Shown here one piece after another: positions 210 to 4,247 of a DNA stretch of 64,000 nucleotides (position 1 is the first letter of the stretch; every line of letters begins with the position of its first letter). The stretch spans positions 1 through 64,000 of the forward strand of contig JAGQYI010000035.1 in the NCBI GenBank assembly GCA_020436165.1. The letters are read 5' to 3'. The stretch is from Cyclobacteriaceae bacterium (GTDB lineage Bacteria > Bacteroidota > Bacteroidia > Cytophagales > Cyclobacteriaceae). Made by a program: the position numbers and the translations under genes. The notes under the pieces were generated by a model. That model ran no database searches. It was not told the DNA's origin and worked only from the letters and a program-made list of their open reading frames with translations.

Positions 210-1385
210 ATGGGAAAAATACATTTCGAAACACTGGCCATCAGAACACAATCTGAAAGAACACATCAGAAAGAGCATTCTGTACCTCTCTATTTAACCT
301 CAAGTTTCACCTTCGATAGTGCTGAAGAAGGCGCGGGCATTTTTAGCGAAGAAATTGAGGGCAACCTGTATTCGCGGTTTACCAATCCCAACTCGGATGA
401 ATTTGCTGAAAAACTTCGCTTACTGGAAGGTGCTGAAGCCGGAGTTGCCACTGCTACCGGAATGGCCGGTATTTATACCGTTTTTGCCGCTTTGCTAAAA
501 ACTGGCGATCATATTGTAGCCTCTTCTGCCATTTTCGGGAGTTCCAAAAAGGTGATAGACAGTATTTTACCCAATCATGGCATTGAATTTACGTTTGTAG
601 ATGTAGATGATACGGAAGGTTGGGAAAAAGCCATTCAGCCCAGCACCAAACTGCTGTTCGTGGAAACTCCTTCCAATCCAACGTTAAAAATTGCAGACCT
701 GGAATTTTTGAGCAACCTGTGCGTTCAAAATGAATTAATCTATGTGGTTGACAATTGCTTTGCCACGCCCTATTTGCAGCAGCCTATACAACATGGAGCC
801 GACCTGGTACTGCATTCTGCCACAAAATACATTGACGGACAAGGCAGGGTGCTGGGAGGTGCCATTCTGGGCAAAAAAAACTATGTGGACGCCTGTTATG
901 ATTTTATCCGAAAGACAGGCGCCAGCCTATCGCCTTTTAATGCGTGGGTGCTTTCCAAAAGCCTTGAAACATTGGCTGTGCGTATGGACAGGCATTGTTC
1001 CAATGCTGAAAAGATTTATCAATACCTCGAAAACCATGAGGAGGTAGAAAAGGTTATTTATCCTCATTCTCCCTCCCACCCACAATATGAGTTGGCTAAA
1101 AAGCAAATGAAATTTGGAGGCGGACTTGTAGGCTGCGAGCTCAAAGGCGGCAAAGAAAGGGGCGCTCGTTTCCTGAATGCGCTTAAGATCCATTCGCTTA
1201 CTGCCAACCTGGGCGATACACGTAGTATTGCCACGCATCCGGCATCAACCACCCATTCAAAACTGTCGGAAGCTGAACAATTGGAGGTTGGCATCACGCC
1301 AGGGTTCATCCGGTTTTCGGTAGGTCTGGAGCATGCAGATGATTTGATTGAGGACATTGAACAAGCATTAAAGGCATCAAAATGA
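210..1385 (+). CDS. metZ: O-acetylhomoserine / O-succinylhomoserine sulfhydrylase
   Basis: A PLP-dependent Cys/Met-metabolism enzyme that makes homocysteine directly from an acylated homoserine and sulfide. The Schiff-base lysine is K206 in HSATKYIDGQG, with the aspartate of VVDNCFATP upstream. The length (391 residues) fits the family. The frame is open back to a TTG at 132, but that would put the riboswitch terminator inside the gene. ATG 210 is therefore preferred; it starts the conserved GKIHFETLAIR segment. The stop overlaps the next ATG (ATGA), so it is probably translationally coupled to metX. Expression should follow SAM levels through the upstream riboswitch. The acyl group is most likely acetyl because the partner gene is a metX; this is inferred from context. 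Confidence 0.93.
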   Translation: MGKIHFETLAIRTQSERTHQKEHSVPLYLTSSFTFDSAEEGAGIFSEEIEGNLYSRFTNPNSDEFAEKLRLLEGAEAGVATATGMAGIYTVFAALLKTGDHIVASSAIFGSSKKVIDSILPNHGIEFTFVDVDDTEGWEKAIQPSTKLLFVETPSNPTLKIADLEFLSNLCVQNELIYVVDNCFATPYLQQPIQHGADLVLHSATKYIDGQGRVLGGAILGKKNYVDACYDFIRKTGASLSPFNAWVLSKSLETLAVRMDRHCSNAEKIYQYLENHEEVEKVIYPHSPSHPQYELAKKQMKFGGGLVGCELKGGKERGARFLNALKIHSLTANLGDTRSIATHPASTTHSKLSEAEQLEVGITPGFIRFSVGLEHADDLIEDIEQALKASK

Positions 1386-2692
1386 ATTCAGTAAAGGAGT
1401 TTAGAGTATTTGAATACAAAGAGCCATTCGAGCTGGAATCGGGTGAAATACTGGATGGCTTGAAAATAGCCTACCATACCTATGGCACACCCAACAGGGA
1501 AATAAGCAATGTGGTTTGGGCATTTCATGCGTTAACGGCCAACTCTGACGTTTTTGCCTGGTGGCCGGGCTTATTCGGCCCCAATGATTTCTTTAACTGC
1601 AAGGACAACTTCATTGTTTGCGTAAACGTTTTAGGCTCGCCTTATGGAAGCTCTACACCTGAAGATGTAAACTTCCCGCAATTTACAGTAAGAGATGTGG
1701 TAAACGCCCAACTTATTATTGCTGAAGAACTTAACATTAAAACCATAAAAGTAGCCATTGGGGGCTCGTTTGGGGGCAGTCAGGCATTAGAATTTGCCTA
1801 TGCCTTTAAAGGTAAAGTTGAAAACCTTATACTAATTGCCACCGGAGCGCTGGAGTCGGCATGGAGTATTGCTATACATGAATCGCAGCGATTGGCATTG
1901 CAGGCCGATCAAACATTTGGCCAGCCTGGAGGTGGCAAAGAGGGACTGAAAGCAGCACGGGCCATTGGTATGCTCACCTACCGTACAGCAGATGCATTTA
2001 TCGAAACACAAACAGATTTTGACGATCGAACGGACAACTTTAGAGTATCCTCTTACATACAGCATCAGGCCAATAAGCTGGAGAAAAGGTTTAATGCCCT
2101 CTCCTATTACTATCTCACCAAATGCCTTGATAGCCATAATATTGGCCGTGGCAGAGGCGGGCTAATTAAGGCTCTATCCTCCATTTCTGCCAGAACATTG
2201 GTTATAGGCATAGATTCCGACCAGCTGCTTCCCACGCAGCTTCAGAAATTCCTGGTTAATAATTTACAAAATGCTATTTATCATGAAGTTCATTCCGAAT
2301 ACGGTCATGACGGATTTCTCACGGAAACCGAAAAGCTCACAGACGTTATCCGCACATTTATTGTTGACAGAAAAGCGAAGAAGATAACTGTAGAAGACCT
2401 ATCGAGAATGATGAAAAAAAGCGAGGATTTTCAACTGATTGATGTGAGAGAGCCTTTTGAACGGGATATTGCCTCCATTGGAGGGCTAAACATTCCCTTA
2501 AAAGATATCCCCGAACATGCAGACAAAATATCCCCCGATAAAAAGATTGTGGTGTATTGCCGAAGCGGTAAAAGAAGCGCATCCGCCATTGAATATCTGC
2601 TTGAAACAAGAGGGCATAATAATCTATTCAACCTGGAAGGTGGAATATTGGACTGGTCGAAAAAGATAGACAGTTCGATTAAGGAGTATTGA
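1382..2692 (+). CDS. metX: Homoserine O-acetyltransferase fused to a C-terminal rhodanese domain
   Basis: Residues 1 to about 330 are an alpha/beta-hydrolase of the MetX family, which acetylates homoserine from acetyl-CoA. The visible catalytic elements are the nucleophile S129 in GGSFGGSQ, D280 in GIDSDQLLP and H309 in YGHDGFL. Residues about 335-430 are a single rhodanese domain with LIDVREPFE, IPL and the active-site loop VVYCRSGKRS (C393). A catalytic cysteine is present, so persulfide carriage is possible. A stand-alone MetX usually ends near residue 330-380, so the rhodanese is an added domain. It is the second gene of the riboswitch operon, overlapping metZ by 4 bases. The acetyltransferase call is firm. 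The role of the rhodanese, perhaps delivering sulfane sulfur to the adjacent sulfhydrylase, is inference. Confidence 0.92.
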   Translation: MNSVKEFRVFEYKEPFELESGEILDGLKIAYHTYGTPNREISNVVWAFHALTANSDVFAWWPGLFGPNDFFNCKDNFIVCVNVLGSPYGSSTPEDVNFPQFTVRDVVNAQLIIAEELNIKTIKVAIGGSFGGSQALEFAYAFKGKVENLILIATGALESAWSIAIHESQRLALQADQTFGQPGGGKEGLKAARAIGMLTYRTADAFIETQTDFDDRTDNFRVSSYIQHQANKLEKRFNALSYYYLTKCLDSHNIGRGRGGLIKALSSISARTLVIGIDSDQLLPTQLQKFLVNNLQNAIYHEVHSEYGHDGFLTETEKLTDVIRTFIVDRKAKKITVEDLSRMMKKSEDFQLIDVREPFERDIASIGGLNIPLKDIPEHADKISPDKKIVVYCRSGKRSASAIEYLLETRGHNNLFNLEGGILDWSKKIDSSIKEY

Positions 2693-2810
2693 TTAAAGCG
2701 TTGGTGTTATAAAGGTTGGGTTAAAGAACTAATAATTCAATTAGTATTTAATTGTCGGGGTAATATTAGGATGTTTGCATTCTATAAACTGGTAAAATAT
2801 TTACCTATGC

Positions 2811-3000
2811 TGGTGCTCGTTTACCTACTATGCTCGTGCGCGTTTATTAACGCGTGCCATTATACTAGCAATTTAAGCTGGTGCGCGTTTGCAACGCGTG
2901 CCACTATATAATCTCTTGCTGGTGCGCTTTTAATACTATGCTGGCACGCGTTTAACAATGGTTGGTGCGCGTTTGCAACGCGTGCCACTATATAATCCCA
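2811..3000. repeat. Cluster of diverged short palindromic repeats
   Basis: Several imperfect copies of a unit with the core GTGCGCGTTTNNNAACGCGTGCC lie in this gene-free stretch. Two copies are identical over 35 bases (2879-2913 and 2963-2997) and share the palindromic heart CGCGTT-TGC-AACGCG. Weaker copies occur around 2831-2859 and 2911-2955. Spacing is irregular and no cas genes are near. The rest of the gap 2693-3197 holds no gene I can support. The sequence resembles dispersed REP-type elements, although no transposase for them is in the window. Confidence 0.7.
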
Positions 3001-3111
3001 CTATACAATCTTTCTAAATCAGCAATTCAACTTCCAGTAAACCTTTCATACCTGCATAGTCTTTTACTGAAATATATCCGAAATATAGACCTTTTCAATC
3101 AAGTTGGTATA

Positions 3112-3190
3112 CTCTTGCTGACGCGCGTTTGCAACGCGAGTCTGTTTAGCTATTGCACGCGTTACGCAAGCTAAACGCGCACGAGCTGGG
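3112..3190. repeat. 79-bp repeat, copy A
   Basis: Identical over all 79 bases to 3799-3877 and in the same orientation. It contains the CGCGTT-TGC-AACGCG palindrome of the neighbouring short repeats plus a second inverted pair, TTTAGCT...AGCTAAA, that encloses ACGCGT. It lies 7 bases beyond the stop of the 144-residue gene on the minus strand and disrupts nothing obvious. Confidence 0.9.
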
Positions 3191-3197
3191 GAAGTAA

Positions 3198-3632
3198 TTA
3201 AAAGTCATCAAGTCTTAATCTATCATTCTCATTTAAAGCTTTTCTAACTTCATTCAACGTTTTTGCATCACCAACACTAATATTTTTTTTAATTACATAC
3301 GAACCATCTTCCTTTTTAAAAGTAATTACATGTTTATGATACCCAAAGCCTCCATGCTCATAAACTAAGATAAAGACACCATCGCAATTTGACCAAAAAA
3401 CTAATCTCCGCTCTTTTAATTTCCTACCACCTTTTACATCAGTTTCTTGAAAATTTTTATCAGGATTAACCATAACAAAGCGATGTTTATAAGTGACTTT
3501 AATTTCATGTTTTATTGCTTTTGGAATTTTCTGTACCTCAAAATGCTCGAAGCATTCATTGTCGTTAATAGTCTGTGCTTTTACAGCTACTGATCCAATT
3601 AATAGAATAAATAAAAAAATTCTCATATTCAT
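3198..3632 (-). CDS. Small secreted hypothetical protein
   Basis: A 144-residue protein of unknown family. It starts with a clear signal peptide (about residues 1-20, ending VAVKAQ), so it is probably exported to the periplasm or envelope. The mature part is rich in Lys, Asp and Glu and ends NDRLRLDDF; I see no catalytic motif. ATG 3632 overlaps the TGA of the upstream reading frame (ATGA), so it was probably translated together with the now broken gene at 3629-4181. The AT-rich composition and the flanking 79-bp repeats suggest a laterally gained pair. I do not recognise a function. Confidence 0.7.
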   Translation of the reverse strand: MNMRIFLFILLIGSVAVKAQTINDNECFEHFEVQKIPKAIKHEIKVTYKHRFVMVNPDKNFQETDVKGGRKLKERRLVFWSNCDGVFILVYEHGGFGYHKHVITFKKEDGSYVIKKNISVGDAKTLNEVRKALNENDRLRLDDF

Positions 3633-4181
3633 CTTTGATTTTTGTTTTTATTATCCTCTTTATCTTTATCAGGTGTACCTCCATCTAGTTTTGGGGGCAT
3701 TATTCTATCTAATTTTATTGGAGTTACGGATGTTGAACTATTTGTTGGGTATAATATAGCACTGTGATTTGTTCTAGTTCCATGATTTAATATAATTGCT
3801 CTTGCTGACGCGCGTTTGCAACGCGAGTCTGTTTAGCTATTGCACGCGTTACGCAAGCTAAACGCGCACGAGCTGGGTATTTTTAATATGATTAAGTTCA
3901 TAATCAGAACAAATAACCTCTAATAGTAAATTATGAGATGAATCAAAAAATCTAATTGTCATACTATTAGTTAGGTCGATTACGACTATTTTATTAAGAA
4001 TACCTTCAAATTTATGAATGATCCTTTTAAAGCCTTTTATTCCAATAATGGTTAAAGCGTCATTAGAAAATATCTTTCCATCTAATTCAAGTAGTCTATA
4101 ATTTAGAATTATTGATTTGCTCTCTTCATTTACTGAAGTATCAATAAATTCCATTTTTTTATCTTTCCATAGTTTCGTCAT
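3629..4181 (-). pseudogene. Small hypothetical gene interrupted by a 79-bp repeat
   Basis: The 5' part (4181 to about 3878) encodes 101 residues starting MTKLWKDKK. It then enters repeat copy B and stops at a TAG inside it (3858-3860), adding the foreign tail QLVRV. Beyond the repeat a second open frame runs from about 3798 to TGA 3629-3631, ending DKDKEDNKNKNQR. Its stop overlaps the ATG of the next gene. Removing exactly 3799-3877 puts both parts in one frame and gives an uninterrupted 157-residue protein across the junction ...HIKN-T-IILNHG. This is read directly from the codons. The protein family is unknown. The N-terminal fragment might still be made as a 107-residue protein, which would be the alternative annotation (3858-4181). 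Confidence 0.7.
3799..3877. repeat. 79-bp repeat, copy B (inside a gene)
   Basis: All 79 bases match copy A at 3112-3190. Here the element sits inside the small minus-strand gene at 3629-4181 and supplies an in-frame stop. I could not recognise a target-site duplication at the edges (left flank ...TATAATTG, right flank TATTTTTAAT...). The perfect identity suggests recent spread or gene conversion. Confidence 0.9.
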
Positions 4182-4211
4182 AACACTAAACTACTAACCA
4201 AATTTCATGAC

Positions 4212-4247
4212 AAAAAAAATAAGGCCGGGCGTTTAAACCCGACCTTA
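4212..4247 (-). terminator. Terminator after ccoS
   Basis: On the minus strand AAGGTCGGG (4247-4239) pairs with CCCGGCCTT (4230-4222) around an 8-base loop, followed by A and a run of T (4220-4212). This is a classic rho-independent terminator for the ccoI-ccoS transcript. It separates that operon from the accessory genes downstream. Confidence 0.85.

Follow-up and report, generated by a model that had tools for sequence, protein, structure and literature searches.

What is a 79-bp repeat doing inside a minus-strand reading frame of this genome, and did it arrive there recently? In the window, the whole stretch of 64,000 nucleotides analysed here, one copy of the repeat (copy B) coincides with the end of a reading frame, and open sequence continues beyond it in another frame. 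The reading that we favor, with a probability of roughly 78%, is that copy B is a REPIN that inserted without target-site duplication into a 157-codon orphan gene, its probable source being the neighboring copy A by a local hop. The features of the locus are as follows.

2803..2989, plus strand: single REP units, arranged as an array, from the family to which copies A and B belong (2827-2861, 2872-2905, 2956-2989 and degraded pieces)
3112..3190, plus strand: REPIN copy A, identical to copy B at a distance of 687 bp and oriented alike; lies immediately beyond the stop of the downstream gene
3198..3632, minus strand: downstream gene encoding 144 aa that begin like a signal peptide; its start codon and the stop of the severed gene overlap as ATGA
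3630..3798, minus strand: severed C-terminal tail of 55 codons plus stop; in the joined frame it is open and shows codon bias
3786..3797, plus strand: left member of an imperfect direct repeat, TTTAATATAATT, 1 bp from copy B
3799..3877, plus strand: REPIN copy B, two inverted REP hairpins with arms at 3799-3832 (+) and 3839-3878 (-); interrupts the minus-strand gene
3858..4181, minus strand: truncated ORF, 107 aa, with ATG at 4181 and stop at 3858-3860 within copy B
3882..3893, plus strand: right member of the imperfect direct repeat, TTTAATATGATT, 4 bp from copy B

A minus-strand gene probably divided by copy B

The truncated ORF has about 101 native codons, and its final residues and stop are supplied by copy B, which introduces GTGCGCGTTTAG (read ...VRV*) into the minus-strand gene. 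On the split-gene reading, the last 55 residues are thereby cut off, and the stop of the severed gene is separated from the start of the downstream gene. Removal of 3799-3877 yields a single ORF, 4181..3630, of 157 codons with ACA (Thr) as the junction codon, and its TGA stop forms the ATGA overlap with the downstream ATG at 3632. The original prediction had described this division, with the N-terminal part stopping in the repeat, as well as the 157-residue product, the ACA junction, the overlap and an identical second copy nearby; recomputation gave the same result on each point, copy A matching copy B over all 79 bases. The lower bound of 3629 given there is one base too low. Its emphasis on exactly 79 bases holds in part: 79 does restore the frame, but so do other excisions of 1 mod 3 length near the ends of copy B (70, 73, 76, 82, 85, 88 and so on), so the frame points to a split gene without fixing the length at 79.

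Coding signal of the severed tail

Over the severed tail, the joined frame is the sole stop-free frame among six. The probability that a 55-codon frame is open by chance is 0.008-0.009 under a first-order model with the tail's own composition, and about 0.04 (3.8%) with the composition of the neighboring spacer. When position-specific base use is trained on the N-terminal part of the split gene together with the downstream gene, the joined frame scores 13 nats above the better one among the remaining forward frames. This codon-position bias is matched by 0.6% of open Markov sequences when measured against the better other frame, and by 0.05% when measured against the mean of the other frames. 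Global codon usage, taken from the long genes of the window, did not discriminate among the frames in this AT-rich stretch. Because an open frame of this length is rare and its codon-position bias is rarely matched, chance is a poor explanation for the tail. Inspection showed no start codon in the joined frame close to where the tail begins, which makes an independent small gene unlikely.

These results also bear on the idea that the repeat is old and native, a terminator-like or mRNA-stabilising REP that ends a genuine 107-aa gene, the tail being decayed or unrelated sequence. REPs are mostly found downstream of genes (PMC3733652), and the copies inspected elsewhere in this genome are intergenic, as such a role would have it. 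It would nevertheless leave a tail that is uniquely open, codon-biased in the very frame predicted by excision and terminated in ATGA, and since A and B do not differ at a single position, a recent copying event is the more plausible. We consider this explanation quite improbable.

The 79-bp element is a REPIN

The 79-mer comprises two imperfect palindromes in inverted arrangement, GCTGACGCGCGTTT-GC-AACGCGAGTC and, inverted, GCTCGTGCGCGTTTAGC..GTAACGCGTGC, with GCTG heads pointing outward, about 70 bp from head to head within the 79 bp shared by the two copies. Since it consists of two inverted imperfect hairpins with heads outward and belongs to a dispersed family, the element is a REPIN, that is, a REP doublet. 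The foot is mostly GCTG or GCTC, and the tetranucleotide GT[AG]G is not found at the 5' foot. In an alignment of 21 single units, the REP stem is paired in 95.7% of cells versus 91.3% in shuffled versions and at most 70.5% in slid versions, and three pairs are changed on both sides.

With the covariance model R1 and matches accepted at E<=0.5, the genome contains 25 REP matches versus 0-7 in four same-genus genomes of varying completeness. Six doublets were recognised, namely A and B (on contig C2), two on C36 and two on C33, each a plus unit followed by a minus unit, 74-83 bp long, with heads outward. The family is thus dispersed and mainly extragenic, with about 25 units of which those inspected are intergenic except for B; the strong copies inspected outside the window all lie between long ORFs (L003, L004 twice, L005, L014, L074, L090 and L092). 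Copies A and B are the only full-length 79-bp copies in the 3.8-Mb assembly, and their identity ends sharply on both sides.

A second identical copy might have arisen by gene conversion, recombination or assembly error instead of transposition, an origin that would be compatible with a split gene. The analysis worked from assembled sequence, in 87 contigs, and direct REP pairs bracket small genes at C36 and C71 too. The sharp ends of the A/B identity speak against such an origin, as do the dispersed, diverged doublets, which show that the unit spreads, and we regard it as unlikely.

In this genome, a small gene of 144-148 aa lies between two direct REP or REPIN copies, 590-693 bp apart, at three loci (L004 1497-2263, L074 1440-2130 and window 3112-3877). 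A duplication at C71 takes in the second REP and the 3' end of the upstream metalloprotease-like gene. At C36, the bracketed small gene and the second REPIN are absent from the sister species.

Direct repeats around copy B

Copy B is framed by direct repeats that match at 11 of 12 positions and lie within 1 and 4 bp of its ends; shuffled sequences reach this level in 1.8% of cases (P 0.018), and AT-rich controls in 0 of 74. These repeats raise the alternative that B inserted with a 12-bp target-site duplication (TTTAATATRATT) in a 96-bp event, in which case the gene ended at about 102 aa (...ELNHIKSWN*) and the tail was not its C-terminus. The repeats are imperfect and near to copy B, but they do not abut it as the target-site duplication of a classical MITE does. 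Copy A has merely a 7-bp direct match, further out, and nothing comparable to the repeats of B. Transposition of the RAYT and IS200/IS605 type leaves no target-site duplication. Moreover, removal of 96 bases does not restore the frame, and the open, codon-biased tail ending in ATGA would be left unexplained; the coding signal of the tail thus makes the 96-bp reading less likely, and we give it very little credence.

Homologues and empty sites

We searched for an uninterrupted homologue with the same neighbor, the check suggested by the original prediction, and found none for the joined 157-codon protein among 146 relatives. For the N-terminal part, 390 genomes of the order gave no convincing homologue. 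Searches of plasmids and viral contigs likewise yielded nothing convincing, and Pfam, NCBIfam and PHROG gave no match. The best matches to the split protein (E 0.004-0.1) are short, and the two loci examined (L050 and L051) do not contain the gene pair. On these searches, the interrupted gene is an orphan. Homologues of the downstream gene exist at L053, L054 and L055, and no recognisable homologue of the upstream gene stands beside them.

Across metX, the sister species G002 shows about 83% identity; in the window (1382-2692) this gene encodes a MetX-like homoserine O-acetyltransferase with a C-terminal rhodanese domain, a protein that is also present in that species. Between metX and the ccoS/ATPase genes, G002 carries a different gene, encoding a 247-aa coiled-coil-like protein, and lacks both the gene pair and the REP array; it therefore offers no empty site for copy B. 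The REP array and the two small genes occupy the interval that the sister species lacks, a stretch of about 1.5 kb from metX to ccoS (window 2693-4212). At C36, comparison with the sister species gave no clean empty site, the first site being a shared, decayed REPIN and the second unalignable.

As neither an uninterrupted homologue nor an empty site was found, we strongly infer, and do not observe, the insertion of copy B into the gene. The proposal of a split gene is supported in part, by the open, codon-biased tail, which lacks a start of its own close to where it begins, and by the ATGA coupling. The further claim that the element is mobile or recently spread fits a dispersed REPIN family linked to RAYT genes. 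The search for other 79-base copies, also proposed there, returned A and B as the only full-length ones, in addition to the diverged doublets.

The link to RAYT transposases

RAYT, or TnpA-REP, enzymes are HUH-Y1 relatives of the IS200/IS605 transposases. This genome has four clear RAYT genes and a weaker fifth, with a Y1_Tnp domain above the Pfam cut-off. Each of the four clear RAYTs has its own, different type of palindrome nearby (L006, L007, L008 and L009; for example TGGTCTTAGCGTCTCGCTGAGACCA and ATGGCGCGGAAGTTATTTCCGTGCCAT). Searches of this assembly, about 95% complete, found no RAYT cognate to the REP of copies A and B.

Such a RAYT occurs in three related genomes. The arrangement REP(+)-RAYT-REP(-) with this REP was found at L062 (UBA11987), and also at L124 and L123, which were located by seeking plus and minus REP units about 640-730 bp apart; the genome of L123 has 41 REP matches. 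In the same-genus genome G004 (L130), the RAYT between two such REPs has decayed to its C-terminal part, and one flanking REP, GCACGCGTTACGC..AAGCTAAACGCGC, is nearly the right arm of copy B. To judge from the same REPs flanking a RAYT at these three loci and at the remnant, the type of transposase cognate to this REP is known. Probably the cognate RAYT has been lost from this genome or is unassembled. Given its absence from the assembly and its decay in a same-genus genome, recent movement may have relied on a RAYT that has meanwhile been lost or is unassembled, or on one of the other RAYTs that are present.

The RAYTs at C44:1616, at C77 and of L123 contain all three motifs NH[LIV]H, WQ and YIH[QN]NP, while the cognate RAYT of L062 deviates with SHLH and YLHENP. 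A tree of ten RAYTs had no supported branch and was too weak to resolve clades. By their motifs, these RAYTs fall in or near TnpA-Y1 subclass 2.6 of the Bacteroidetes, equivalent to RAYT group 5 (PMC6006769), with which they share N/S-H-x-H, WQ and Y-[IL]-H-x-NP. Members of that subclass have been described with flanking palindromes of an atypical kind (PMC6006769), and the RAYTs here are similarly bordered by atypical palindromes that lack GTAG and recur elsewhere in the genome. The difference is that the search of this assembly found no RAYT for the present REP, although one is intact in other Bacteroidota and a remnant survives in the same-genus genome.

Proposed history of copy B

In the mechanism proposed for REPINs, RAYTs act on them in trans and move them as single-stranded DNA (PMC3116915). 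In the history that we propose, a non-autonomous REPIN would have landed in the 3' part of the 157-codon orphan gene, leaving no target-site duplication. The insertion would have brought in a stop, removed the last 55 residues and parted the stop of the gene from the start of the next. Its likely source would be the identical copy A, and the step may have been a local hop of the kind put forward for RAYT/TnpA-REP enzymes acting on single-stranded DNA. The A/B identity, the doublet family, the tail's coding signal and the linkage of this REP to a RAYT in related genomes are directly established; beyond these, we infer that B is the more recent arrival and was brought in by a RAYT through a local hop. 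B rather than A is taken as the newcomer solely because it breaks a reading frame. The local hop is suggested by the spacing of A and B, 687 bp in the same orientation, and by the two C36 doublets, which likewise share their orientation and are 693 bp apart. One might go further and suppose that the REPIN is still mobile through other RAYTs acting in trans, with copies landing within about 700 bp in the same orientation, as in single-strand hopping at the replication fork; this extension we hold to be doubtful.

Relation to known systems

Like the REPINs or BIMEs of Pseudomonas fluorescens SBW25 (PMC3116915), copy B consists of inverted REPs about 70-80 bp end to end with heads outward, and both families are dispersed, mostly intergenic and non-autonomous. 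They differ in the head, GCTG here and GTGG/GTAG in SBW25, and in number, about 25 units against hundreds; in addition, copy B disrupts a gene out of frame.

REPs and REP dimers within genes have been catalogued, in-frame ones included (PMC3733652), and copy B resembles these and the Rickettsia RPEs in being a REP dimer inside an ORF. REPs inside genes are thus already known, but in the catalogued cases REP-encoded residues lie within ORFs, whereas copy B brings a stop and a frame shift, and its truncation of a gene differs from the in-frame cases.

A GCTG-headed REP family of Bacteroidota is here tied to its RAYT in several genomes, in a group whose palindromes the literature consulted describes only as atypical (PMC6006769). 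With two identical copies, one of them interrupting a gene, the locus lends itself to a search for empty sites and excision in close strains. To our knowledge, the movement of REPINs has rarely been caught in the act.

At L005 (1448-1578), a REPIN follows and terminates an ORF of 20 codons with the look of a signal peptide (MKSFLAVVLVVSFNTVLVRV*); here a REP-family member may have cut a second gene. A match to the REP pattern also occurs in Aggregatibacter (L057).
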